From NCBI GenBank assembly GCA_016214695.1, contig JACRNY010000003.1, positions 62,001 to 126,000 of the forward strand: a DNA stretch of 64,000 nt. Reading direction: 5' to 3'. This DNA comes from Nitrosomonadales bacterium (GTDB taxonomy: Bacteria > Pseudomonadota > Gammaproteobacteria > Burkholderiales > Gallionellaceae). The notes below the pieces were generated by a model that ran no database searches, was not told where the DNA came from, and worked only from the letters and a program-made list of their open reading frames with translations. Positions within the stretch are counted from its first letter, which is position 1; the number at the start of each line of letters is the position of its first letter. The translations under genes and the position numbers were made by a program. Shown piece after piece: positions 28,606-43,473 of the stretch.

Positions 28606-29922
<1,317 letters not shown>

Positions 29923-29925
29923 TTA

Positions 29926-29956
29926 TTAGCCACAGAGAACACAGAGGTCACAGAGA
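29926..29956 (+). repeat. CACAGAG-family terminal repeat, left copy (31 bp)
   Basis: Begins TTAGCCACAGAGAACACAG. It is a perfect 31-base inverted copy of 30319-30349. It contains the last codons and the stop of the GxxExxY gene. The same family recurs at 40151-40247 and 42402-42484. Confidence 0.95.
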
Positions 29957-30313
29957 AATTCGCTTTACTCCACTGACCATCTGCTTTTCTCCAAAATTCA
30001 GTAGTAGCCCTCGCTTCAGACCCGTTGCTTTTAGATATGAGAGCACTTGCGCTGTCGCCACTTCCGGCAAAGTCCGCAGGGATTTGATTTCTACAACAAC
30101 TTCATTTGCAACAAGCAAATCCAGACGCTGCCCCTGAATCGCGCGACCTTTGTACATCACATCGACTGCCAGCTGCTGTTGAAACGACAGACCCATCAGC
30201 TCCAACTCAATGCACAGCGCCTCTTCGTAGATCGACTCCAGCAGTCCCGGTCCGAGGTTCTTGTGAACCTCAATCGCCGCTGCAATTATCTTCTCTGTCA
30301 GTTGATCTGCCAC
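29948..30313 (-). CDS. GxxExxY protein (PD-(D/E)XK nuclease-like fold)
   Basis: 121 residues. The family-naming motif is visible as GPGLLESIYEEAL near residue 21. Further family marks are the RLDLLVANEVVVEIKSL block, which carries the D...ExK core of a PD-(D/E)XK-type nuclease fold, and the VLSYLKATGLKRGLLLNFG end. The start is a GTG at 30313, six bases inside the right 31-bp repeat, which supplies an AGAGG/AGAGA ribosome-site-like sequence. The stop lies in the left repeat, so the gene fills the space between the two inverted repeats exactly. Function of the family is not established; the setting suggests a mobile-element role. Confidence 0.88.
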   Translation of the reverse strand: MADQLTEKIIAAAIEVHKNLGPGLLESIYEEALCIELELMGLSFQQQLAVDVMYKGRAIQGQRLDLLVANEVVVEIKSLRTLPEVATAQVLSYLKATGLKRGLLLNFGEKQMVSGVKRISL

Positions 30314-30318
30314 GACTA

Positions 30319-30349
30319 TCTCTGTGACCTCTGTGTTCTCTGTGGCTAA
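30319..30349 (-). repeat. CACAGAG-family terminal repeat, right copy (31 bp)
   Basis: Perfect inverted copy of 29926-29956. Its outer end provides the TAG stop codon of rarA (30346-30348). Confidence 0.95.
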
Positions 30350-31665
30350 TTCTTGTTTTTCGCCTTTTTGTCCAGCTCGCGCAGATGCGCCAGTTTCTCC
30401 GCGATTTTCGCTTCCAGCCCGCGTTCGGTGGGCTCGTAAAAACTCACTGGCGGCATGCCGTCGGGGAAGTAGTTCTCGCCCGCCGCGTAACCGCCTGCCT
30501 CATCGTGCGCGTAACGATAGTCCTTGCCGTAATCCAGCTGCTTCATCAATTTGGTCGGCGCGTTGCGCAAGTGCAGCGGTACTTCGCGCGAACCGTCCTG
30601 GCTGATGAAGGCGCGGGCGGCATTATACGCGACATAGCCCGCGTTCGATTTCGCCGCAACGGCCAGGTACAGCACAGCCTGCGCCAGCGCGAGTTCGCCT
30701 TCCGGCGAGCCGAGGCGTTCGTAGGTCGCGGCGGCATCATTGCACAGCTGGATGGCGCGCGGGTCGGCCAGACCGATGTCTTCCCAGGCCATGCGCACGA
30801 TGCGCCGCGCGAGGTAGCGCGGGTCGGCGCCGCCGTCCAGCATGCGCACCAGCCAGTACAGCGCGGCATCGGGATTGGAGCCGCGCACCGATTTGTGCAG
30901 TGCGGAGATCTGGTCGTAGAAGGCTTCGCCGCCCTTGTCGAAGCGGCGCATCTTCTGCGCCAGCGTGTTGTCGAGAAAAACAGTGTCGATGCTTGTCTTT
31001 CCCGCCGCCGCCGCCGCGGTCTGCAACTGTTCCATCACATTGAGCAGGCGGCGCGCATCACCGTCGGCATAACCGATCACACGCTCGCGCGCTGCCGCGT
31101 CGAAGATGACATCCGGCAATGCCGCCTGCAATGCGCGTTCGAACAATTGCCCCATCTCGGCTTCGGACAGCGATTGCAGCACATACACCTGCGCCCGCGA
31201 CAGCAAGGCGTTGTTCAGTTCGAACGAGGGATTCTCGGTAGTCGCACCGATGAAGGTGACCAGCCCCTGCTCGACGAAAGGCAGGAAGGCGTCCTGCTGT
31301 GACTTGTTGAACCGATGGACTTCATCCACGAACAGGATGGTGTGGCGGCCATTCTGCTGCAGCGTCTGTTCGGCCTGCGCGATGGCGTCGCGGATATCCT
31401 TCACCCCGGACAGCACCGCCGACAGCGGCACGAACTCTGCATCGAAGGCCGATGCCATCAGCCGCGCCAGCGTGGTCTTGCCCACGCCCGGCGGCCCCCA
31501 CAGGATCATGGAATGCAGCTTGCCGGACTGGAACGCGAGACGCAGCGGCTTGCCCTCGCCCAGCAGATGCGACTGGCCGATGACCTCGTCGATGTGCTTC
31601 GGACGCAGGCGCTCGGCGAGCGGTGCGGCTGGCTGGTTGGGCGCGAACAGGTCTGCCGTGCTCAT
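30346..31665 (-). CDS. rarA: Replication-associated recombination protein A
   Basis: 439-residue clamp-loader-like AAA+ ATPase (MgsA/WRNIP1) acting at stalled replication forks. Walker A GPPGVGKTT, Walker B ILFVDEVHRF, sensor region FIGATTENPSFELN, and the C-terminal tetramerisation domain (KSVRGSNPDAALYWLVRML; YPDG-like YFPDGM) are all visible. Its ATG overlaps the lolA stop. The neighbouring lolA-rarA-serS order is common in proteobacteria; here a GxxExxY element has entered between rarA and serS, and the final stop TAG comes from the element. Confidence 0.96.
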   Translation of the reverse strand: MSTADLFAPNQPAAPLAERLRPKHIDEVIGQSHLLGEGKPLRLAFQSGKLHSMILWGPPGVGKTTLARLMASAFDAEFVPLSAVLSGVKDIRDAIAQAEQTLQQNGRHTILFVDEVHRFNKSQQDAFLPFVEQGLVTFIGATTENPSFELNNALLSRAQVYVLQSLSEAEMGQLFERALQAALPDVIFDAAARERVIGYADGDARRLLNVMEQLQTAAAAAGKTSIDTVFLDNTLAQKMRRFDKGGEAFYDQISALHKSVRGSNPDAALYWLVRMLDGGADPRYLARRIVRMAWEDIGLADPRAIQLCNDAAATYERLGSPEGELALAQAVLYLAVAAKSNAGYVAYNAARAFISQDGSREVPLHLRNAPTKLMKQLDYGKDYRYAHDEAGGYAAGENYFPDGMPPVSFYEPTERGLEAKIAEKLAHLRELDKKAKNKN

Positions 31666-32279
31666 TACTCGCCCAGGACGTCTGCGCCTTTAGGCGGGGT
31701 AAAGCGGAAGCGCTGCGGCGACAGCGACGGATTGCTTTTCAATTCGGAAAAACGCAGCACGGTGTGATGGCCGAAAGCGTCGTGCAACTCCATCCGCACC
31801 AGCTCGGACTTGCCGTTGAAGGCCATGAGGATCTTCTCGAAAGTGGACTCGGACGATTTGGGCGTGGCTTGCAGCCATTCCAGACCGTCGCGCTCCTCGA
31901 TGTTCTTCAGATCGAAACCGCGCTCGATCTCGTTGCTGCCGGAGAGCAGCGCCGCCGGACTGCTGCCCAGGGCGGCATCCAGTTTCTTCACCGTGACCTG
32001 CTCCAGATCGACGTCATACAGCCAGAACTTCCTGCCGTCGCCGACGATGAGCTGCTCGTAGGGCTTGCGGTATTCCCAGCGGAACTTGCCGGGACGCTCG
32101 AACTGCATGGTGCCGGATGAATATTGAAGGCGCTTGCCGTTCTTGTCCTGCACTTCCTGGGTGAAGTTCGCCTGCGCGGAACGCGTGGCGGCGATGAACG
32201 ACCTGAGCTTGTCGGTGGCGGCGGCGTTGGCTTCGACTGCAGCCAGACAGAGCGCAGCGACACAGAGTCTCTTCAGCAT
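31665..32279 (-). CDS. lolA: Outer-membrane lipoprotein carrier protein
   Basis: 204-residue periplasmic chaperone that ferries lipoproteins from LolCDE to the outer membrane. Signal peptide MLKRLCVAALCLAAVEANAA, then the LolA barrel with ARSAQANFTQEVQDKNGKRLQ, GKFRWEYRKPYEQLIVGDG and the C-terminal FGHHTVLRFSELKSN. It sits in the conserved ftsK-lolA-rarA-serS block, two bases after ftsK. The many lipoproteins in this window would be its clients. Confidence 0.95.
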   Translation of the reverse strand: MLKRLCVAALCLAAVEANAAATDKLRSFIAATRSAQANFTQEVQDKNGKRLQYSSGTMQFERPGKFRWEYRKPYEQLIVGDGRKFWLYDVDLEQVTVKKLDAALGSSPAALLSGSNEIERGFDLKNIEERDGLEWLQATPKSSESTFEKILMAFNGKSELVRMELHDAFGHHTVLRFSELKSNPSLSPQRFRFTPPKGADVLGE

Positions 32280-32281
32280 GT

Positions 32282-34555
32282 TTATTCCGGCCTGGCCGGC
32301 GCCAGCACTTCGCGGTTGCCGTTCGCCTGCATGGTCGACACCAGCCCGGCCTTCTCCATCGCCTCGATCAGGCGCGCGGCGCGGTTGTAACCGATGCGCA
32401 GGTGGCGCTGCACCAGCGAGATGGAAGGACGGCGCGTCTTCAGCACGATCTCGACCGCCTGGTCGTACAGCGCATCGGCTTCGGCATCCCCGCCGCCGCC
32501 GTCGTATTCGCCCTCGGCCGGTTCATCCAGCGAAGTCAGCACGCCCTCGATGTAGTTGGGCTGGCCCTGCGCCTTGAGGTGTTCGGCGACGCGGTGCACC
32601 TCCTGGTCGGAGACGAAGGCACCGTGCACGCGCTGCGGGTGACCGCTGCCGGGCGGCAGGTAGAGCATGTCGCCCTGCCCCAGCAAGGACTCCGCGCCCA
32701 TCTGGTCGAGGATGGTGCGCGAGTCGATCTTGCTCGACACCTGGAACGCGACGCGCGTCGGCACGTTGGCCTTGATCAGGCCGGTGATGACATCCACCGA
32801 GGGCCGCTGCGTCGCCAGCACCAGATGGATGCCGGCGGCGCGCGCCTTCTGTGCCAGACGGGCGATGAGCTCTTCCACCTTCTTGCCCACCACCATCATC
32901 AGGTCGGCCAGTTCGTCGATGAAGATGACGATGTAGGGCAGTTCTTCCAGCGCCTCGGGATTCTCCGGCGTGATGGTGAACGGGTTGGTCAGCGGTTCGC
33001 CCGCCTTGATCGCATCGCGCACTTTCTGGTTGTAGCCGGCGATGTTGCGCACGCCCAGCGCCGACATCAGCTTGTAGCGCTTGTCCATTTCCTGCACACC
33101 CCAGTTGAGCGCGGAAGCGGCCTGGCGCATGTCGGTGACCACCGGCGCGAGCAGGTGCGGGATGCCTTCATAAACGGAGAGTTCCAGCATCTTGGGGTCG
33201 ACCAGCAGCAGACGCACCTGCTGCGGCGTGGACTTGTACAACAGGCTCAGGATCATGGCGTTGATCGCCACCGACTTGCCCGAACCGGTGGTGCCCGCCA
33301 CCAGCGCGTGCGGCATCTTGGCCAGGTCGGCCACCACCGGCTTGCCGGAGATGTCCTTGCCCATCGCCATGGTGAGCGGCGAACTCATCTCGGCATACAC
33401 CTGCGAACCGAGTATCTCGGACAGGTGCACGATCTGCCGCTTCGGGTTGGGCAGTTCCAACGCCATGTAGGCCTTGCCGGGGATGGTCTCGACCACGCGG
33501 ATGCTCACCACCGACAGCGCGCGCGCGAGGTCGCGCGCCAAATTGACGATCTGGCTGCCTTTCACGCCGACCGAGGGATCGATCTCGTAACGGGTGATGA
33601 CCGGACCGGGATAGGCGCCGACCACCTTGACCTCGACGCCGAAATCCTTGAGCTTGCGCTCGATCAGGCGGGAGGTGAATTCCAGCGTCTCGGCGGAGAC
33701 CACCTCTACTTGCTGCTTAGCTTCGTCCAGCAGGCGCAGCGGCGGCAGATCGGTATCGGGGATGTCGGCGAACAGCGAGACCTGCTTCTCCTTCTCCACG
33801 CGCGTCGAGCGCGGCACTTCCATCACCGGCATCTCGATGTGGATGGGCTGATGTTCCTCGACGCGCTTCTTCTCTTCTTCCACCACGATGCTGCGTTCCT
33901 GCATCGCCTGCGCGCCGATGCGCTTGTCCTGCCGGGTCTGCCAGGTGTTGCGCGCCCACAGGTACGATTCTTCCAGCACGCCGCCGAACCAGTCGACGAA
34001 GCGCAACCAGGACAGTCCGGTGTACAGGCTGAAGCTCGCCACCATCAAGGCTAGCAGGAACAGGGTCGCTCCGGTGAAGCCCAGTACATGCGCCAGCGCA
34101 CCGCCCAGCACGTCGCCCAGCATACCACCCGGCCTGAGCGGCAACTCGACCTGCCAGGTATAAAGGCGCAGGGCTTCAAGCGCGCTGCTGGCGAACAGCA
34201 GCACCAGGAAGCCGGACAAGGAGACCCACAGTGCGCGCTGGTCGAACAGGCTGTCGGCGCGCATGCGGCGGTAGCTGGCCCACACGCGCTGCAGCATCAG
34301 CGTGACCAGCCACCAGGCGGAGAAACCGAACAGGTACAGCAGCACATCTGCCAGCCAGGCACCAAGCACCCCGCCGGGATTGTTGGTGACGGCATTGCTC
34401 GCGCTATGCGACCAGGACGGGTCGGCACGGTCGAAACCGAACAGGATAAGGATCAGGTAGACCGCCACCGCCACCAGCAGCAGCCAGCGCGATTCGCGCA
34501 ACAGACCGAGCAGTCTTTCCGGCAAAGGTGGGCGGGGACTTGCGGGCAACGCCAT
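32282..34555 (-). CDS. ftsK: DNA translocase FtsK
   Basis: 757 residues: an N-terminal domain with four membrane segments, a short linker (shorter than in E. coli FtsK), and the motor domain with Walker [14 protein letters not shown], Walker [14 protein letters not shown], and the C-terminal gamma winged-helix domain ([20 protein letters not shown]) that reads KOPS. It pumps DNA at the septum for chromosome dimer resolution. I use the ATG at 34555, which overlaps the response-regulator stop as ATGA; a TTG lies one codon upstream. Confidence 0.96.
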
Positions 34556-35241
34556 CAATGCGCCTCGGTATCGGTGGGGGCGGGAGGCAGGAAACCGAGG
34601 CGGCGTGCGGCGCTGACCGCTTCCAGACGCGAATTCACGTGCAGCGCCTGGTATACGGCGGCAGTATGGATCTTGACCGTGCCCTCGGTCAGGTTCATCT
34701 TTTTGGATATCTCCTTGTTGGCGAGGCCGGCCGCGAGGTAGGTCAGCACCTCAAGCTGGCGCGAGGTCAGGCCGAACTTGGCTGCGCGTTGCGAACGCTT
34801 GTTCGCCACCGCTTCGCCCGGATCGACGTTGCTCACCGCCTGCTGCAGCAGTTGCGGCGGCAGGTAGACGCCGCCTTCCAGCACCATGCGCAGCGCCGAC
34901 AACATGATCTTGCTGGAAGACATCTTGGAGATGAAACCCATCGCGCCGGATTCCATCACGCTTTCGATGTCGTCGCGATGATCGGAACCGGAGACCACCA
35001 CCAGCGGGATATCGGGATGGCGCAGATGGAAGAACTGGATGGACGGCACGCCTTCGCTGCCCGGCATGTTCAGGTCGAGCAGGGCCAGATCGACATCGGG
35101 GTTGTCATGCACCAGCTGCAACGCATCCTGGAAATTCCCGGAATCCAGTATCTCGACCTCATCGGCCAGTTGCTGTAACACATAGCGCATACCATCGCGG
35201 AACAACGCATGGTCGTCGGCCATCAGCACCTTGATCTTCAT
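34555..35241 (-). CDS. LuxR/NarL-family response regulator
   Basis: 228 residues: receiver domain with acidic pocket D9/D10 and phospho-acceptor D56 ([13 protein letters not shown]), a linker, and a LuxR-type helix-turn-helix ([40 protein letters not shown]). It follows a hybrid histidine kinase gene by about 190 bases and overlaps ftsK, so it is probably the kinase partner and is co-transcribed with ftsK and lolA. Targets unknown. Confidence 0.92.
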
Positions 35242-35277
35242 AGCTCTCCCTGACCTCTCTTCAATCGTTGCAAGAAG

Positions 35278-35376
35278 CCCCTCTCTCCAACTCTCTCCCG
35301 CAGTGCGTGTGTTGTTGGAGCTTCAGCCCCTTACAACCACGACCCACCCTTTGCGGGCGAGCGGGAGAAAGAACGA
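35278..35376. repeat. Palindromic repeat between kinase and regulator genes
   Basis: Outer arms CTCTCTCCCGC and GCGGGAGAAAG enclose inner sequence with its own complementarity. Same CCCTCTCCCGC family as the palindrome at 26332-26357, but with the arms pushed apart by about 75 bases. It occupies most of the 190-base gap, in which I see no gene. Confidence 0.65.
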
Positions 35377-35432
35377 ACGTGAAAGACAATCTTCAAACCT
35401 CGCCCGCAATCATACCACTCCGCGCACGGGCT

Positions 35433-37250
35433 TTAGTTCTCGCCGTGCAATGCGAAATACATCATCGAACGCAGACGCACCGGCGCGATCGGCTTGTGCA
35501 GCAGGACCGCCCCGCTGGCGTGGATCTCGTTCAGCGTCTCGCTGGCGGTATCGCCGGTCAGCACCAGCACAGGCAAGTCGTTGCCCCACAGTTCGCGCAT
35601 CTGCTTGATCACGTGGATGGCCGTCTTGCCGTGCGGCAGGCGGTAATCGCACACCAGCACGTCCGGGCGCAGTTCGGCGATGTCCAGCTTGCGCATCACA
35701 TCTTCGGCATACTCCCCCGCGACCACCCTGCAGCCCCATTGCTCCATGAGGTCGTTGGACAGCTCGCGGATGTCCTGGTCGTCCTCCACCAGCGCCACCA
35801 CACTGCCGCTCAGATCGTATTGGGAATGGGTGATGACGAAGGGCTGCACCAGCCGTGCCACATCTCCGACCGGCACGGCAAAGCCGAACGTCGAACCGAC
35901 GCCGGGTTCCGAACGGACCTGCACCTTGCAGCCCAACAGCCCCTCGATGCGCCGCACGATGGCGAGCCCCAGCCCCAGCCCCTTGCGCCGGTCGCGGTGC
36001 GGATTATCGGCCTGATAGTATTCCTCGAAGATATGCGGCAACGTCTCCGGCCTGATGCCGATGCCGGTGTCTGACACTTCCAGTTCGATGCGCTCGGGCG
36101 AGCAGGTGCAATGCACCGCGACTCCGCCGTTATCGGTATAACGGATGGCATTGGAGATGAGGTTGCGCAGCATGCGTTCCAGCAGGAAAGGATCGCTGTA
36201 GATCACCATGGTGCAACCGCACGGCTCATGGCTGTCGCCCGTGCAGATCGGCAACTGGAAGCTCAGGCCCTTGGCCTGGGCGAGCGGCGCGAAATCGCCA
36301 TACAGGCGATCGAACAGGGAACCCAGCGTGAAGTGCTGCCAGCGCGGCTCGACGATGCCCGCATCCAGCCGCGACACATCGAGAAGGTCGTCGAACATGT
36401 CGACCAGCGCATTGACCGATTTGCCGATCTGGCCGGCAAGGCGCACGGTCTCCTTGTCCTTCGCCGTGTCCTGCAGCGCATCGGAAAACAGGCGCAGTGC
36501 CTGCAAGGGCTGGCGCAGGTCGTGGCTGGCAGTGGCGAGGAATTTGGACTTGGCCTGATTGGCCTGCTCGGCAGCTTGGCGCGATGTTTCTGCTTCGCGC
36601 TTGCGTTCCAGCAGCGCGCCGACCAGCCGTTCGTTCTCGAACCTGCGTCGTTGCGACTGCTCGAAAGTGAGGATCAGTTCCAGCGCCGACTTGAGCACGA
36701 AGATGCAGAACATGCTGAGCATGCTCGCCAGTATCCAGTGGGTGACGTCGTTCTCCCACGCCAGCCGCCCCATCAACGGTACGATCATACCCATCAGATA
36801 GATGAACATCGAGGGCGGGTGGAAAGGGTTGCTGGTCGCGGCGCCGGCCGCCATGCCCATCATCACGCAGATCATCAAGGCCTGATAGGCCAGGTCGCCG
36901 GGAACGAACATGAGCACCCCGGCGCTGCCCCAGGCGACTGCCGCCATCGCCGTGAGCCGCTTGAACAGGGTGTCCCACTCGCGATTCTGCGCGATCGTCT
37001 TCGACAGTGCGCGATGCCTGCGCCAGAAATAGAACTCGGTGGCGTGCACCAGATAGACAGCTAGCAACCAGCCCTGCAGCGCAGCATGCGAAACCTTGTC
37101 CCACATCAGCCACACCAGCAGCGGAGCGATGATCAGCTCCGCCACGAGCATCAGCGGGTAGCTGTTGATACGGGCACGGATCTGCTCGGCGCGGATCGGC
37201 AGATTTGTTTCGTCTATCTCAAATCGCAGCAGATCGATCAACGAATTCAT
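35433..37250 (-). CDS. Membrane-bound hybrid sensor histidine kinase
   Basis: 605 residues. The N-terminal sensor has about six hydrophobic helices (30-190) with no recognisable periplasmic domain, then a coiled coil, HisKA with phospho-acceptor H243 (ATASHDLRQPLQALRL), an HATPase_c domain (NLISNAIRYTDNGG; DTGIGI; GLGLGLAIVRRI) and a C-terminal receiver with D535 in VLVCDYRLPHG. The HDLRQPLQ form of the H-box is typical of kinases that act with NarL-type regulators such as the downstream gene. A cysteine-rich stretch (CTGDSHEPCGCT, HCTCS) in the ATPase domain is unusual. Start ATG overlaps the sco stop. Confidence 0.92.
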   Translation of the reverse strand: MNSLIDLLRFEIDETNLPIRAEQIRARINSYPLMLVAELIIAPLLVWLMWDKVSHAALQGWLLAVYLVHATEFYFWRRHRALSKTIAQNREWDTLFKRLTAMAAVAWGSAGVLMFVPGDLAYQALMICVMMGMAAGAATSNPFHPPSMFIYLMGMIVPLMGRLAWENDVTHWILASMLSMFCIFVLKSALELILTFEQSQRRRFENERLVGALLERKREAETSRQAAEQANQAKSKFLATASHDLRQPLQALRLFSDALQDTAKDKETVRLAGQIGKSVNALVDMFDDLLDVSRLDAGIVEPRWQHFTLGSLFDRLYGDFAPLAQAKGLSFQLPICTGDSHEPCGCTMVIYSDPFLLERMLRNLISNAIRYTDNGGVAVHCTCSPERIELEVSDTGIGIRPETLPHIFEEYYQADNPHRDRRKGLGLGLAIVRRIEGLLGCKVQVRSEPGVGSTFGFAVPVGDVARLVQPFVITHSQYDLSGSVVALVEDDQDIRELSNDLMEQWGCRVVAGEYAEDVMRKLDIAELRPDVLVCDYRLPHGKTAIHVIKQMRELWGNDLPVLVLTGDTASETLNEIHASGAVLLHKPIAPVRLRSMMYFALHGEN

Positions 37251-37834
37251 TTAATCGCTAACAACAGTTTGATGTCCTGCACCAAAAACTCTGCGCGCTG
37301 CCCGTAAGGCGCCAGCAGAACCGGCTTGCCGCCAGGCGCGATGAGATAGGTCCCCGCGGAATGGTCCAGGTCGTAGCCACCGTTCTTGTTCTGGTGGATC
37401 TGCCAGGTCACGCCGAACGCCTGCGCTGCTTGTGCGGTCGCCATGGTATCACCGGACAAGCCCTTGAAAGCAGGAAAGAATGCCGGCGGATATTGTGACA
37501 GGAGTTCGCGCGTGTCGCGCTGCGGATCCAGCGTCACGAACAACACCTGCACCTTGTCGGCATCCTTGCCCAGCATGCGCATCACCTGCGCCAGGTCGGC
37601 CAGCGTGGTCGGGCATATCTGCGGACAGTGGGTATAGCCGAAGAACAGCACCACGACCTTGCCGCGGTAATCCGCAAGACTGACGGATTTGCCGTCCGCC
37701 TCGTTGAGCCGGAAGTCGGCGCGTGCATATTGCGCACTGACGTCGCTGGCCTTGAACGGCGAAGGCAGCGTCTGTTCGCCGCAGGCAGAAAGGAACGACA
37801 GGGAAAGAAACAGAACCAGATTACGCCGCCACAT
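37247..37834 (-). CDS. SCO1/SenC copper-chaperone family protein
   Basis: About 195 residues from the ATG at 37834 (MWRRNLVLFLSLSFLSACGE, lipoprotein signal with lipobox LSAC). Thioredoxin-like fold with the copper-binding CxxxC in YTHCPQICPT and the distal histidine in DLDHSAGTYLI. Proteins of this family help build the CuA site of cytochrome c oxidase or act in periplasmic redox. It overlaps the tauE/safE-like gene by 14 bases and the kinase by 4. No oxidase gene is nearby. Confidence 0.92.
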   Translation of the reverse strand: MWRRNLVLFLSLSFLSACGEQTLPSPFKASDVSAQYARADFRLNEADGKSVSLADYRGKVVVLFFGYTHCPQICPTTLADLAQVMRMLGKDADKVQVLFVTLDPQRDTRELLSQYPPAFFPAFKGLSGDTMATAQAAQAFGVTWQIHQNKNGGYDLDHSAGTYLIAPGGKPVLLAPYGQRAEFLVQDIKLLLAIK

Positions 37835-38603
37835 GACACGCTCCCGTCCATCCATGGACTGCAAAGGTATATCCCACCTTGATCAAACCATACACACCCA
37901 GCGATGCGACCAGCCCGCCGGCGACCAGACGTACGCGCCGCGACTGCACCCAGCCCTTGACGCTCTCCCAGAACAGGCCGATCGCCAGCAGGTTTGGCAG
38001 CGTACCCAGACCGAAAGCCAGCATGACGAGTGCGCCCTGCATCGCACCGCCGCTCGCCAGTGCGGTGAGCAGCACGCTATACACCAGACCGCAGGGCAAC
38101 CAGCCCCACAGCGCGCCGAGCCCCAATGCCCGCGGCACCGTGTTCACCGGCAACAGCCTGGCGGTGTAGGGCTGCAAGCGCTTCCACAGACCGCCGCCCA
38201 GATGTTCCATGCGTCGTACCACACCCCATACGCCCGCCAGGTACAGTCCGAGAGCGACGAGCATGAAGGAAGACAAGGCGAACAACAGATGCTGCACCGG
38301 CACCGCATCGCGCATCAGCAACCCGGCCTGCCCCACCGCACCGACCAGTGCGCCTGCAGCCGTATAACTCAGGATGCGTCCGCTGCTGTAGGCCAGATGG
38401 AAGGGCCAGCGCGCAGAAGGACGACGATCCCTTGCCCCGGCTGGGGCAAGACGGTTGGCCCCTCCCCCGCTGGGGGAGGGTTCGGGTGAGGGCTTCGACA
38501 TTTGCGTGGTGAAGATGCCGACGATGCTGCCGCACATGCCGAGGCAGTGCACACCGCCGAGCAAGCCGACCAGAAACACGGCAAAGATACTGAATTCAGT
38601 CAT
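37821..38603 (-). CDS. TauE/SafE-like (DsbD/CcdA-superfamily) membrane protein with repeat insertion
   Basis: 260 residues from the ATG at 38603 (MTEFSIFAVFLVGLLGGVHC). Polytopic, with the HCLGMCG cysteine pair (C20, C24) in the first helix that marks the family often annotated sulfite exporter TauE/SafE or UreH-like. Members near sco genes are thought to help copper or haem delivery to oxidases. Residues about 35-62 (KPSPEPSPSGGGANRLAPAG) are translated from palindromic repeats at 38431-38480 and form an extra hydrophilic loop before RWPFHLAYSSGRI. Overlaps bioD and sco. Confidence 0.82.
   Translation of the reverse strand: MTEFSIFAVFLVGLLGGVHCLGMCGSIVGIFTTQMSKPSPEPSPSGGGANRLAPAGARDRRPSARWPFHLAYSSGRILSYTAAGALVGAVGQAGLLMRDAVPVQHLLFALSSFMLVALGLYLAGVWGVVRRMEHLGGGLWKRLQPYTARLLPVNTVPRALGLGALWGWLPCGLVYSVLLTALASGGAMQGALVMLAFGLGTLPNLLAIGLFWESVKGWVQSRRVRLVAGGLVASLGVYGLIKVGYTFAVHGWTGACHVAA
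38431..38480. repeat. Two palindromes inside the tauE/safE-like reading frame
   Basis: CTTGCCCC/GGGGCAAG (38431-38450, loop of four) and CCCTCCCCC/GGGGGAGGG (38460-38480, loop of three) lie ten bases apart and are translated in frame as a Pro/Ser/Gly-rich loop. Confidence 0.88.
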
Positions 38604-39276
38604 TGGTCTCTTGTTTGTCGAGCAGTTCCAGTTGCAGATGTGTGGCAGCCGCACGCGCATCGGGCTGCACCTGATACGGCACGATACCCAGCAGGGGCGC
38701 AGCGATGCGCTCGCGCAGGGCGTCGATATTCTCCTGCAATGCCGGCATGCCGGCATCGAGTATGTTCGCCACCCAGCCGGCGCATTCTAGTTGATGATCG
38801 GCGATCGCGCGCGTGCTCAGCAAGGCATGATTCAGACAGCCCAGCCGCATCCCCACCACCAGGATGACCGGCAGGTCCAGTTCCTTTGCAAGATCGGCGC
38901 TGGTCTGCTTCTCGTTCAGCGGCACCAGGAAGCCGCCGGCACCTTCCACGATCACCACATCCGCTTGTCCGGCCAGTTCGTGGTACGAGGTCAGGATGCG
39001 CTTGAAGTCGATGCGTGCACCTGCGTGGCGCGCGGCCAGATGCGGTGCGATGGCATGCGGAAAACAGTAGGGATTGACCTGCCCGTAGGTGAGCTGCATC
39101 GAACTCGCCGCGCGCAGGGCATTGGCATCGTCATTGTGGTCGTGCTCGTCGCAGCCGGCGGCCACCGGCTTGAAGCCAGCCACGCGCTTGCCTTGTGCCG
39201 CGTACGCGTGCAGCAACGCACAACTGACCAGTGTCTTGCCGACGCCGGTGTCGGTACCGGTGACGAAATAACTCAT
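38596..39276 (-). CDS. bioD: Dethiobiotin synthetase
   Basis: 226 residues. ATP-dependent ring closure of DAPA with CO2, the penultimate biotin step. P-loop GTDTGVGKT at the N-terminus, followed by VAGFKPVAAGC, and VVIVEGAGGFLVPLNEKQT as switch/Mg-binding blocks. Start overlaps bioC as ATGA; its stop overlaps the tauE/safE-like gene. Confidence 0.95.
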   Translation of the reverse strand: MSYFVTGTDTGVGKTLVSCALLHAYAAQGKRVAGFKPVAAGCDEHDHNDDANALRAASSMQLTYGQVNPYCFPHAIAPHLAARHAGARIDFKRILTSYHELAGQADVVIVEGAGGFLVPLNEKQTSADLAKELDLPVILVVGMRLGCLNHALLSTRAIADHQLECAGWVANILDAGMPALQENIDALRERIAAPLLGIVPYQVQPDARAAATHLQLELLDKQETND

Positions 39277-40142
39277 CGCCTGAAGTCCGTCCTGATGATG
39301 GCGCGACCGTCGGCCACCGTCTTCGGCGCAGCTTTCCAGGCATGTCCGTAGATGATCTCGAACGTCGCCGGCAGTTTGCCGTCGCGGCGCAGTTTCTCGT
39401 AATTCTCCGTCACCCGCTGCCAGGCCGCCTTGCCCATCATGCCCGGCGCACGCCCGGCGGTGGCATTGTGCGCACCTATGCTCTTCAGGTCCTGCATCAC
39501 CGCGCGCACATCATCGTAAGTCAGTGTGAGCCTTTCCATCTCCATGACCGGATCGGCGAATCCGGCATTCACCAGCATGTCGCCGATATCGTGCATGTCG
39601 GCGAAACGGTTGAGGTGGCTGTAACCGTCCACTCCGTGGAAAGCCGTGCGCAGTTCCTGCAGGGTATCCACGCCGAAGCTGGAGAACATCAGCAGGCCGT
39701 CGACCTTGATCACGCGCTGCAACTCGACGAAAGTGGCAGGCAGGTCGTTGCACCATTGCAGCGCCAGATTGGACCACACCATGTCCACGCTGCCGGTGGC
39801 GACGGGCAGCGCCTCGACATCGGCACACAGATAGCTTTCGCGTTGCGCTGCGAACAGCTTCTTCCACCAGCTCGATGTACCGCGCGCATGCTGCAGCATG
39901 CCGATGGCGATATCGAGCGCCGTGATATCCGCTTTCGGATAACGCTCGCCCAGCTGGCGCGTGCCCCAGCCCGTGCCGCTGCCGACATCGAGCAGGCGCG
40001 ACGGCCGGATCTTGATGATGTCCAGTTTCTCCAGCATGCGCACGCACACTTCGCGCTGCAGCACCGCCGCGGCGTCGTAGTCCTGCGCGGCACGGCTGAA
40101 GGCACGGCGTACTTGTTTCTTGTCTATTTCAAACTCATTCAT
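39273..40142 (-). CDS. bioC: Malonyl-[acp] O-methyltransferase
   Basis: 289 residues. Methylates malonyl-ACP with SAM to start pimelate synthesis for biotin. Class I methyltransferase motif RLLDVGSGTGWGTRQLGERY, then the post-motif aspartate ALDIAIGML, and the BioC-typical VWSNLALQWCNDLP and LLMFSSFGVDTLQELR. Preceded by the CACAGAG element that separates it from bioH. Confidence 0.95.
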   Translation of the reverse strand: MNEFEIDKKQVRRAFSRAAQDYDAAAVLQREVCVRMLEKLDIIKIRPSRLLDVGSGTGWGTRQLGERYPKADITALDIAIGMLQHARGTSSWWKKLFAAQRESYLCADVEALPVATGSVDMVWSNLALQWCNDLPATFVELQRVIKVDGLLMFSSFGVDTLQELRTAFHGVDGYSHLNRFADMHDIGDMLVNAGFADPVMEMERLTLTYDDVRAVMQDLKSIGAHNATAGRAPGMMGKAAWQRVTENYEKLRRDGKLPATFEIIYGHAWKAAPKTVADGRAIIRTDFRR

Positions 40143-40150
40143 TTAAAACC

Positions 40151-40247
40151 TTATTCGCCACAGAGATCACAGAGTACACAGAGATATATGCGCGTTGAAT
40201 TGCAGCTCTCTGTGATCTCTGTGATCTCTGTGTCCTCTGTGGCTATT
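40151..40247. repeat. CACAGAG-family inverted repeat without a gene (bioH-bioC)
   Basis: Left arm about 40151-40184 and right arm about 40207-40246, imperfect inverted copies of the GCCACAGAG...CACAGAG sequence that flanks the GxxExxY gene, separated by some 22 bases. The right end supplies the TAG stop of bioH (40243-40245). Confidence 0.92.
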
Positions 40248-41076
40248 TGTCTTTCGCTTTAAAAAAATCGGTTACCGCTTCCACGAATTGTTGTGGGTGC
40301 GACAGGAACGGAGCATGTGCCGCGCCCGCCACTTCGACCACGCGCGCCGACGGCATGGTCTGCGCCAGATAGTATGACGCCTCGGGCGGGGTCAGCTTGT
40401 CGCGCTCGCCGGCGATGAGCAGCGTTGGCTGCGCGATCTGCGGCAATCCTGCGCGCAGATCGGCATCGCGCAGTATCTCCAGCCCGCCGCGCAAGGCACC
40501 CATGTCGGGCTCGCCGCGGCTGAACAGGCGCTCGCGCAGCAGCGCCAGCAGTTCGCGCTCGTTCTCGCTGCCGCGCAATTGCAGCGCAATGAAGCGGCGC
40601 AGCGTGGCCGCATGGTTCTGCTCCAGTTCGGCGGCGAATTTTGCCAGCACTTCACCCGTCATGCCGAACAGCCAGTCTTCGCGTTCGGCGAAACACGGCG
40701 TGCTTGTCACCAGCACCAGCCGCCGCACCTTGGCCGGCTCGCGCCCGGCCCAATGCAATGCCACCTGCCCGCCCAGCGACCAGCCACATACGTTGAGCGG
40801 TTCGCTGAATTGCTGCGACAAGGCCTCGACCAGGTCATCCAGTAAAGCTAACCCCCTCCCCACCCCCCCCCCAGGGGGAGAGGGAGCAATCGCCATGTCC
40901 CGCTGCTGCGGGATATGAAGCATTGAACTCATGCCGAAGCCCGGCAGGTCAACGCTGATCACTTGAAAATCTTCAGACAGCTTCTGCGCCACATCCGTCC
41001 ACACGCCGCCGTGCATGCCCCAGCCGTGGATCAACAGCAGTGGTTCGCCGCTGCCTATGCGCTCAACATACAACAT
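40243..41076 (-). CDS. bioH: Pimeloyl-[acp] methyl ester carboxylesterase with repeat insertion
   Basis: 277 residues from the ATG at 41076 (MLYVERIGSGEPLLLIHGWG). Alpha/beta hydrolase that ends pimelate elongation: nucleophile in GWSLGG, acid in GERDKLTPPE, histidine in AGAAHAPFLSHP. Between DLPGFGMSS and LLDDLVEALS lies a loop (MLHIPQQRDMAIAPSPPGGG...) about 20 residues longer than in E. coli BioH, encoded by a palindromic repeat with a run of ten Gs. The frame is open upstream through another copy of the repeat, but that translation (LPLGEGSGEGRP) is repeat-derived. The C-terminal stop is provided by the CACAGAG element. Confidence 0.92.
   Translation of the reverse strand: MLYVERIGSGEPLLLIHGWGMHGGVWTDVAQKLSEDFQVISVDLPGFGMSSMLHIPQQRDMAIAPSPPGGGVGRGLALLDDLVEALSQQFSEPLNVCGWSLGGQVALHWAGREPAKVRRLVLVTSTPCFAEREDWLFGMTGEVLAKFAAELEQNHAATLRRFIALQLRGSENERELLALLRERLFSRGEPDMGALRGGLEILRDADLRAGLPQIAQPTLLIAGERDKLTPPEASYYLAQTMPSARVVEVAGAAHAPFLSHPQQFVEAVTDFFKAKDK
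40851..40888. repeat. CCCTCCCC-type repeat with C10 run, inside bioH
   Basis: C-rich arm CCCCCTCCCC, ten consecutive Cs (40863-40872), and a partly complementary AGGGGGAGAGGG arm. In the coding strand this gives PSPPGGGVGRG. The homopolymer is prone to slippage. Confidence 0.85.
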
Positions 41077-41082
41077 CGGCCT

Positions 41083-41119
41083 TCCCTCTCCCGAACCCTC
41101 TCCCAGAGGGAGAGGGGCC
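41083..41119. repeat. CCCTCTCCC palindrome just upstream of bioH
   Basis: Arms CCCTCTCCC and GGGAGAGGG around ACCC-containing centre, in the gap between bioF and bioH. On the minus strand its end GGGAGAGGGAAGG lies directly before the bioH ATG and can serve as the ribosome site. Confidence 0.8.
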
Positions 41120-41137
41120 AAACGACGCTGCGCGGAT

Positions 41138-42397
41138 TTATGATCTCCTTGTAAGCTCATGCAAGGCTCCGATGAGTCGATCGACATCCGCTTCGCTGTG
41201 CGCGGCCGACAGCGTGATGCGCAAGCGCGCGGTGCCCTGCGGCACGGTGGGCGGACGGATCGCCGCGACCCAGATGCCGCGTTCGCGCAGGCCCTCGCTC
41301 AGTTGCAAAGCCTGTGCATTGTCCCCGATCAGCAGCGGTTGTATCGCGGTGTCCGAGGGCATCAGCCGCCAGGGCAGGTCGGCCAGGCCGATGCGCAGTC
41401 GTTGCACCAGTTGTTGCAGTTGGGCGCGCAGCGCGTCACCGCGCTCGATCAGTTGCAGGCTCTGCAACAAGGCAACGGAAAGCGCCGGCGGGGTCGCCGT
41501 GGTGTAGACGTAGCTGTGCGCGTGATTGACCAAGGTATCGATGACCACCTGCTCCGCCGCAACGAATGCACCGGAGACGCCGGCGGCCTTGCCCAGCGTC
41601 GCCATGTAGATGATGCGCGGCGAGTCGATGCCGAAATGCGCCAGCGAGCCGCGCCCCTGCCTGCCCAGCACACCGAAGCCGTGCGCATCGTCGACGTACA
41701 ACCACGCATCATGTTGCTCGCACAGCGCCAGCATCTCGCGCAGCGGCGCGATATCGCCATCCATGCTGAACACCGCGTCGGTGATGACCAGTTTTCTGCC
41801 GTTTGGGGTCTGCGCCAGCAGTTGCGCAAGTTGCGCCATATCGCCGTGGCGGTAACGTTTGGTGTCGGCGCGCGACAACAACATCGCGTCGTTGAGCGAA
41901 GCATGGTTGAGCTTGTCGGCGAACACGGTGTCGCCCTTGCCGACCAGCGCCTGCACCACGCCGAGGTTGGCCATGTAACCGGTGGAGAACAGCAGCCCGG
42001 CGGGTTTGCCGACGAAGGCGGCGAGCTGTTGTTCGAGGCGATGGTGCGGCGCGAAATGCCCGCTCACCAGGTGCGCCGCACCCGCGCCGACACCCCATTG
42101 CTGCGCCCCCTGCTGCAAGGCAGCGACGAGTTGCGGATGACTGGCGAGGCCGAGGTAATCGTTGCTGCAAAAAGCGAGATAGGGTTTGCCGTGCGCCTCC
42201 GACACGTTACTGGCGCAGCCAGCCGTTTGCGGGAGGAGGCGCTCGGGCGGCACTCCCGCACCGTTGGCTACGCCACACTCTGTCGTGCCGCCCAAGACGA
42301 TGTGCGGCGACTGCGACGTATCCAGCGTGCGCCGCTTGCGCAGCAGGCTTTGCGCGGCGCGTTCGTCGAGTTCGATTTGCAGTTGGGTAAAAGGCAT
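41138..42397 (-). CDS. bioF: 8-amino-7-oxononanoate synthase with repeat insertion
   Basis: 419 residues from the ATG at 42397, longer than the usual roughly 385. PLP-dependent condensation of pimeloyl-ACP with alanine. Core motifs are intact: YLAFCSNDYLGLA, LVSGHFAPHHRLEQ, DDAHGFGVLG, and the region of the PLP lysine in ATLGKAAGVSGAF. Near the N-terminus, between RTLDTSQSPHIVL and GKPYLAFCSN, is an extra stretch of about 34 residues (TTECGVANGAGVPPERLL...) that coincides with a palindromic element. Position in the fold is the surface N-terminal arm, so activity may survive. Confidence 0.93.
   Translation of the reverse strand: MPFTQLQIELDERAAQSLLRKRRTLDTSQSPHIVLGGTTECGVANGAGVPPERLLPQTAGCASNVSEAHGKPYLAFCSNDYLGLASHPQLVAALQQGAQQWGVGAGAAHLVSGHFAPHHRLEQQLAAFVGKPAGLLFSTGYMANLGVVQALVGKGDTVFADKLNHASLNDAMLLSRADTKRYRHGDMAQLAQLLAQTPNGRKLVITDAVFSMDGDIAPLREMLALCEQHDAWLYVDDAHGFGVLGRQGRGSLAHFGIDSPRIIYMATLGKAAGVSGAFVAAEQVVIDTLVNHAHSYVYTTATPPALSVALLQSLQLIERGDALRAQLQQLVQRLRIGLADLPWRLMPSDTAIQPLLIGDNAQALQLSEGLRERGIWVAAIRPPTVPQGTARLRITLSAAHSEADVDRLIGALHELTRRS
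42229..42293. repeat. Structured palindromic insertion within bioF
   Basis: Nine-bp arms GGGCGGCAC (42245-42253) and GTGCCGCCC (42285-42293) plus a second pairing GCGGGAG/CTCCCGC that overlaps it. It lies in frame in the extra N-terminal stretch of BioF; the full inserted segment is probably about 100 bases. Confidence 0.7.
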
Positions 42398-42401
42398 CTT
42401 T

Positions 42402-42484
42402 TTGCCACAGAGCACACAGGGATCACAGAGAACGAAGCGCTCTGTTTTGCTTTTCTCTGTGTGCTCTGTGTTCTCTGTGGCTAA
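42402..42484. repeat. CACAGAG-family inverted repeat without a gene (bioB-bioF)
   Basis: Left arm from 42404 (GCCACAGAGCACACAGG) and right arm up to 42483, whose complement starts TTAGCCACAGAGAACACAG as at the GxxExxY locus. About 20 bases between arms. The right end carries the bioB stop TAG (42481-42483). Confidence 0.92.
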
Positions 42485-43473
42485 TGATTTTTGTCGGTCA
42501 ACGGGTACAAACCCAGCTTGTTCATCAGCGCCCGGTCACGCTCCACTTCCGGGTTGCCGGTGGTCAGCAACTGTTCGCCGTAGAAGATGGAGTTGGCGCC
42601 GCCGAGGAAACACAGCGCCTGCACGGCATCGCTCATCTCGCCGCGTCCGGCGGAGAGACGCACGAAGGCTTTCGGCATGGTGATGCGTGCCACGGCGATC
42701 ATGCGCACGAAATCGAGCGGGTCGATGTCTTCGGTCTCGGCCAGCGGCGTGCCTTCGACCTTGACCAGGTTGTTGATCGGCACGCTCTCGGGGTACGGAT
42801 CCATATTGGCCAGCTGTGCGATGAGTCCGGCGCGCTGGGTCAGGTTCTCGCCCATGCCGATAATGCCGCCGCTGCAGACGTTCATGCCGGCCTTGCGCAC
42901 GCGCTCCAGCGTGTCGATACGGTCCTGGTAGTCGCGCGTGCTGATGATGTTGCCGTAGAACTCGGGCGCGGTGTCGAGGTTGTGGTTGTAGTAATCGAGA
43001 CCGGCGACACGCAGCTGCTCGGTCTGTTCGTCGTTGAGCATGCCCAGCGTGGCGCAGGTCTCCATGCCCAGCGCACGCACTTCCTTGACCATCTCCACCA
43101 CGGCCTTCATGTCGTTCTCGGAGGGTTCGCGCCAGGCCGCGCCCATGCAGAAGCGACCGGCGCCGGCACTCTTGGCCGCCTTGGCCGCTTTCAGCACCTC
43201 TTCCACGTCCAGTATCTTCATGTTCTCCACCCCGGCGGAGTGATACGAAGACTGCGTGCAATAGCCGCAGTCCTCGGTGCAGCCGCCGGTCTTGATCGAC
43301 AGCAGGGTGGAGAGTTGCACGGCGTTGGGATCGAAGTTCTCGCGATGGATCTGCTGCGCGCGGTACATCAGGTCGGAGAACGGCAGCTTGAACAGGACCT
43401 CGATTTCGGCGACGCTCCATTGCCTTTGTTTGGTATCGGCAAGGCTGGCGGTTTCGGCGTGTGTGGTGTGCAT
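42481..43473 (-). CDS. bioB: Biotin synthase
   Basis: 330 residues. Radical SAM enzyme inserting sulfur into dethiobiotin. The [4Fe-4S] motif CxxxCxxC is in [14 protein letters not shown]; the [2Fe-2S] ligand cysteines and arginine are in the blocks [27 protein letters not shown] and the C-terminal [17 protein letters not shown]. First gene of bioB-F-H-C-D. bioA is not in this window. Divergent from comF with about 67 bases between, which must hold both promoters; no BirA operator could be recognised with confidence. Confidence 0.96.

Follow-up and report, generated by a model that had tools for sequence, protein, structure and literature searches.

A 121-codon gene enclosed on both sides by one and the same inverted repeat raises the question of what the gene and the repeats are to each other. 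In the 64,000-nt window (the whole stretch of DNA analysed here), this arrangement lies between ORFs which we take to be rarA-like and serS-like. The left-hand arm (29926–29956, + strand) consists of TTAGC, three CACAGAG 7-mers separated by two free bases each (AA, then GT) and a closing A, and an identical arm (30319–30349, − strand) faces it; both were located from the sequence, a repeat search and a 7-mer count. As the initial annotation had claimed, the two copies are perfect over 31 nt, and they reach 38 nt at 95% when extended, a pairing far beyond chance. CACAGAG itself occurs 20 times in the window vs 9.55 expected, a count reached in 0 of 100 shuffles. The gene (29948–30313, − strand; ORF list, Pfam and TIGR profiles) begins at a GTG codon 5 bases from the right-hand arm and, as first described, ends with a TGA inside the left-hand arm, and the interval has room for no other gene. 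Further out lie an A-run on one side (29917–29920, + strand) and GTTTT, a T-run, on the other (30355–30359, + strand), parts of an outer block that recurs in 24 elements of this genome.

The encoded protein belongs to the family known as GxxExxY (139 bits against TIGR04256, cut-off 35) or PDDEXK_3 (140 bits against PF13366, cut-off 22), with otherwise only a sub-threshold DUF and no known transposase domain among the Pfam profiles. Residues E26, D65, E75 and K77, invariant in 77 homologues, correspond to the conserved E, D and ExK of PD-(D/E)XK nucleases. A search of PDB sequences gave no match, and an AlphaFold2 model (pLDDT 95.6, pTM 0.88) found as its nearest Foldseek neighbour SSO0001 (PDB 4ic1; E 9.5e-4, the only match below 0.001), which we take to be Cas4, followed by lambda exonuclease (E 5.3e-3) and MGME1 (E 4.9e-2), with TM-scores of ~0.5. 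The signature residues and the modelled nuclease-like fold together make this a putative nuclease. A median dN/dS of 0.04 across eight orthologues, with synonymous changes often saturated, indicates strong purifying selection on the gene. Plasmids and phages are not suggested as its usual carriers by 8 of 72,556 plasmid records (tblastn, this protein as the only query) and five viral loci (pattern scan), searches that each reach part of the family. In the accessible text of the literature the family is mentioned in passing, and no description of its repeats or dispersed hairpins was found there, preprints and most subscription papers lying outside the search. Sixteen repeat strings matched, within the same accessible text, only animal papers (by title) and one Bacteroides fragilis PCR primer, which sits upstream of an invertible promoter.

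The repeats are not restricted to the gene. Beyond those in the initial annotation, the window holds two gene-less CACAGAG hairpins, recognised from sequence and folding, one at 40157–40243 between bioC-like and bioH-like genes and one at 42404–42481 between bioF-like and bioB-like genes (presumed names); both junctions are empty in other congeners. Across the 2.66-Mb genome the CACAGAGNNCACAGAG pattern has 125 matches vs 0 for the reversed control, and at least 30 gene-less hairpins of CACAGAG design stand against two GxxExxY genes, the two matches of the PF13366 profile. The 30 places come from the stretches read, one or two of them having the exact pattern in one arm only, and at least two more were listed. 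The second GxxExxY gene of the genome (L032) is framed by a different unit, CGCCAAG.

Comparison of the 24 elements with three units in both arms, the gene-bearing one included, revealed CACAGAG units that are exact in 140 of 144 cases, inner spacers close to random (entropy 3.57 of 4 bits), and opposed spacers complementary in 9 of 48 cases vs 7.2 when shuffled. The interiors between the arms span 15–99 nt, or 364 nt where the gene is present, and a second conserved block lies 10–13 nt outside the arms, made up of an A-run in one flank and a T-run in the opposite flank, giving an outer consensus order of A-run, TTAGC, CACAGAG. Because the units are nearly invariant while spacers are near random and pair at chance level, it is the 7-mers that are kept and not the whole stem, and a stem selected along its full length is rejected. 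For two hairpins, folding of the single strand was tested and found to be good (z −7.4 and −7.2). An Rfam search gave no match at the hairpins. Terminator-like sites number nine in 29500–43000, vs 9.0 expected by chance, and since none of them overlaps the three hairpins, an intrinsic terminator (a GC-rich stem followed immediately by a T-run) was rejected as their identity. Long tandem arrays of the unit on one side only were seen in two places, CTCTGTGat downstream of the gene in L082 (G098) and CACAGAGaa at G032:C41:37039–37108, as if arms can expand.

The initial annotation had allowed that homologues of the gene might generally lack such flanks; in three samples of GxxExxY genes picked by protein only, inverted iterated flanks are the general state. 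The samples comprised 80 named loci (judging by record titles, from about 20 phyla and including two archaeal MAGs), 31 family loci and 30 phylum loci, the last dominated by one family (f33), and were scored by the inverted complementarity between 120 nt on each side, the control being the same geometry shifted into neighbouring DNA. A score of at least 15 was reached at 61/80 named and 24/31 family loci vs 8/290 shifted windows, and at 20/30 phylum loci vs 2/106; at a score of at least 20 the numbers were 42/80, 22/31 and 16/30, with 0/290 and 0/106 in the controls. Scores under 12 were obtained for 15 of the 80 named loci. Pairing the flanks of different loci, as a more stringent control, gives at least 12 in 40%, at least 15 in 20% and at least 20 in 5% of cases, values that are high because flavours (the repeat types) are shared or related across phyla. 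Units of the form CRCNRAG are mainly oriented as expected in the 19.2 kb of arms of the named loci (355 on the expected strand vs 71 on the other), the distal flanks having 362 on both strands of 121 kb. Four of five viral GxxExxY relatives are without such repeats; the fifth, on a viral contig (L305), has a frame of CACGAAG/CACAAAG-type repeats. In 14 control genomes PF13366 matched in three, none above the TIGR04256 cut-off.

GxxExxY genes differ in the unit that frames them, and the units seen include CACAGAG, CGCAAAG, CGCAGAG, CGCGGAG, CGCCAAG, CACGAAG, CACGAAA, CACGGAG, CGCAGATT, CACGGATGAA, ACAGGAT and CAGGAAA. Repeat flavour agrees with protein phylogeny: on a quickly made tree for 111 proteins, built from few columns and with many unresolved forks, the 99 rows left after dropping 12 without a clear unit need 39 unit changes vs a shuffled mean of 58.1 (minimum 53), and the 70 labelled named loci alone need 36 vs 42.4 (minimum 39). 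Protein identity likewise correlates with shared flank 7-mers (Mantel r 0.22, p 0.0002), also when the clade of CACAGAG genes with two-nt spacers is removed (r 0.18, p 0.0010). That clade (SH-aLRT 98) unites Gallionellaceae with Planctomycetota, Marinimicrobia, Hydrogenedentota and Ignavibacteriae, and since arms of one kind are found in most of its members, the gene seems to move along with its arms. Another fixed resident locus was observed at six CGCAGATT/CACAGATT-type genes (L087, L089, L230, L238, L239 and L241), which precede the same downstream ORF (MKFKIYRYNP..., presumably sdhB-like).

The abundance of four flavours is linked to the gene that bears them. Of 150 family genomes, 107 have no GxxExxY gene; where there is one, its flavour was judged by eye. 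The median numbers of matches in genomes whose gene has the flavour concerned, in those whose GxxExxY genes are all of other flavours, and in those lacking the gene were 62, 5 and 1 for CACAGAG, 24, 2 and 0 for CGCAGATT, 75, 2 and 0 for CACGAAA, and 13, 0 and 0 for CGCGGAG. With the four own-arm matches subtracted, the p-values in the same order were 5e-8, 2e-6, 5e-6 and 2e-4, and permuting flavours among the 34 genomes bearing one of the four gave p 5e-5, kinship being ignored in both. Left outside the flavour sets were a sub-threshold match in G118 (counted as no gene), a fragment in G048, variant flavours of G007 and G149, the CACGAAG, ACAGGAT and CACGGATGAA flavours, and, in G053 and G015, the CACAGAG genes with one-nt spacers (G015 under CACGAAA). 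High copy numbers of a flavour are found chiefly, though not exclusively, where the genome's GxxExxY gene has that flavour: CACAGAG-rich genomes in which no matching gene was found include G072 (209), G087 (182), G127 (101) and G082 (101), and CACGAAA-rich ones include G142 (98) and G037 (94).

The link is weaker in 50 named genomes, chosen from the 80, than in the 150 family genomes: the median number of copies elsewhere is 19 if the pattern is present in the flanks of the gene itself (n=14) and 0 if it is not (n=36; p 0.0035, kinship ignored), with exceptions of up to 215 copies. Within the genus, the seven genomes with the gene have 32–297 matches, and the 26 without have at most 31 in 24 cases and 182 and 209 in the other two. 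Independent contrasts on the starred branches of a RarA+BioF tree gave 3.4 in the same direction and 0 in the opposite one over ~4 pairs, falling short of significance because the pairs are too few.

The rarA-serS junction shows how the gene element itself behaves over time. Among congeners it is either occupied by the gene element, short and clean, or filled with other REP-like repeats, beside which a CACAGAG relic is found in two; the possibility, allowed for at the outset, that gene order and repeats are strictly vertical and never polymorphic thus does not describe this genus. At eight loci without the gene (L201, L202, L205, L206, L209, L210, L218, L225) the junction holds palindromic repeats with TGTAGG/GTAGGGTGGG ends, which resemble RAYT-linked GTAG repeats, and at L221 and L225 a CTCTGTG or CACAGAG relic stays beside them. 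The gene occupies this junction in 14 family genomes (in G098 only the rarA side was read), two of these copies being fragmented and two interrupted by a single in-frame stop each. Because it is found there so often and some copies are decayed, the rarA-serS copy looks old and repeatedly lost, a long-resident locus rather than a frequent mover.

Between the stop and start codons at the bioB-bioF and bioH-bioC junctions, some species carry a gene-less hairpin and others have none. The interior of the bioB-bioF hairpin, delimited by hand, has one orientation in six species, this one included, and is inverted in six, which reflects either a flip in situ or independent insertions. In G143, an interior of ~115 nt is common to six CACGAAA hairpins from different loci, at ~75–87% identity and in both orientations, and their flanks are unrelated apart from 53 nt shared next to one pair and a match of 14 nt at another; since they share the interior, the hairpin unit has been copied. 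That 53-nt left flank, common at 96% to L268 and L269 (G143:C17), is perhaps another adjoining repeat. Of the comparison of junctions that the initial annotation had proposed, the filled and empty states were found, but no target duplication is visible between them and the ends are not fixed, the relatives being too diverged.

It could be that another enzyme, for instance a RAYT, spreads the hairpins and that the GxxExxY gene, enclosed by the arms, is simply a passenger, a reading that would account for hairpin-rich genomes without a matching gene and for the other REP-like repeats that occupy the same junction in relatives, which resemble RAYT-linked GTAG repeats as far as the accessible part of PMC3733652 describes them. 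We consider it unlikely: one protein family, with a flavour of its own, turned up in all three samples, the flavours agree with the protein tree, hairpins are more numerous where the matching gene is present, and purifying selection on the gene is strong. If instead the protein were a nuclease that limits or edits the hairpins, or a repair enzyme whose gene is marked by the same repeats for self-regulation, its modelled resemblance to end-processing nucleases, the overlap of the arms with the start and stop region of the gene, and the two orientations of hairpin interiors at one junction would all be accommodated, but genomes with the gene have more matching hairpins, not fewer, and we consider this about as unlikely. 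That the hairpins are host regulatory or terminator elements, with mobility unrelated, suits their place between operon genes, the folding of the two tested and the binding factor implied by invariant 7-mers, yet it is the most doubtful reading, given that Rfam is without a match, terminator-like sites overlap none of the window's three hairpins, opposed spacers pair at about the shuffled rate, the same junctions are empty in congeners, and the flavour match is left without explanation. All three readings explain part of the data, and none explains that match.

The reading we regard as likely is a system resembling REPIN/RAYT, with an enzyme and non-autonomous hairpins, built on an unrelated nuclease of the Cas4/lambda-exonuclease type. 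The gene and its arms would together be the autonomous form of a hairpin element, in whose family every GxxExxY lineage encodes a small PD-(D/E)XK nuclease and has, on either side, inverted arrays of a short unit particular to it, here CACAGAG-NN-CACAGAG-NN-CACAGAG. Hairpins that share this unit but contain no gene would be the non-autonomous relatives of this form, spread to intergenic junctions and numerous mainly beside a matching gene, as REPINs are with RAYTs. The nuclease may recognise the iterated 7-mers as duplex, or as the hairpin of an extruded or single strand, and would cut at or near the element, after which host repair or replication could complete copying into a new junction. 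The suggestion in the initial annotation that gene and repeats form one mobile unit is supported overall. The architecture and its breadth, the flavour match, the presence or absence of hairpins at junctions and the dispersed copies with a common interior are observed; that the protein binds and cuts the repeats, and how transfer would proceed chemically, we infer.

Insertion sequences and MITEs are also dispersed inverted-repeat elements with gene-bearing and gene-less forms, a dispersal that the GxxExxY hairpins share; unlike them, the GxxExxY element is without a known transposase domain, and its interior and spacers vary around fixed short units. The window protein is a member of TIGR04256/PF13366, a family named by motif only, and its model has the PD-(D/E)XK core in common with Cas4 (SSO0001), lambda exonuclease and MGME1, from which it differs in being smaller and tied to its own flanking repeats, with a TM-score of only ~0.5.

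REPIN/RAYT systems, in the accessible parts of PMC3116915, PMC8049555 and PMC3733652, comprise hairpin-forming inverted doublets in intergenic space and an enzyme gene flanked by the same repeats, with copy number tied to the enzyme and the enzyme gene staying long at one place. As far as those parts go, the GxxExxY system is alike in having inverted doublets as hairpins in many intergenic copies (125 pattern matches, at least 30 hairpins), an enzyme gene flanked by its repeats, which it is taken to serve by correlation only, a hairpin copy number tied to the gene, and a gene long at one place. Set against the same text, it differs in that GxxExxY is a PD-(D/E)XK protein in which Pfam finds no Y1 (HUH) tyrosine transposase domain, there is no GTAG foot, the outer consensus being A-run, TTAGC and CACAGAG, and its arms are iterated 7–11-nt units with free spacers and opposed bases not selected to pair. 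By analogy it would work as REPIN/RAYT does, with one persistent enzyme gene and non-autonomous hairpins, but it is not RAYT/REP itself, because transposase domain and GTAG foot are both absent. The early comparison with RAYT and REPs as a mobile unit fits better than its author was in a position to see, given that hairpins without the gene are dispersed in the genome and their flavour goes with that of the gene; what it did not foresee is a gene copy that appears resident rather than often moving. We count the system as a new kind because it shares the defining features of no known family besides its protein's own name and fold; if any enzyme-plus-hairpin system is one kind, GxxExxY hairpins are a variant within it.

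In more general terms, we lean towards GxxExxY proteins being nucleases dedicated to mobilising a very widespread class of hairpins that has gone unrecognised, a second and independently evolved REPIN-like system, with many unexplained short interspersed repeats (CACAGAG, CGCAAAG, CACGAAG, CACGAAA, CGCAGATT, CACGGATGAA and ACAGGAT types) as their footprints and one protein lineage per repeat type. If so, a family known by motif alone and found here in about 20 phyla would gain both a function and a substrate, many short repeats whose origin is unexplained would be brought together, and the one-to-one correspondence would therefore amount to a readable specificity code from a 120-residue nuclease to a 7-mer, the natural nuclease-lineage/repeat pairs serving to decode DNA specificity. 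We know of no lone PD-(D/E)XK nuclease that transposes DNA; should one spread these hairpins, it would represent a route of DNA mobility distinct from DDE transposases, HUH transposases and site-specific recombinases.

The BioF-like protein contains an in-frame stretch of ~31 residues (44–74; window 42194–42286, − strand) that is skipped by the matches of its congeners, and stretches similar to this insert match elsewhere in several congeners, so that it looks like a small in-frame repeat insertion.
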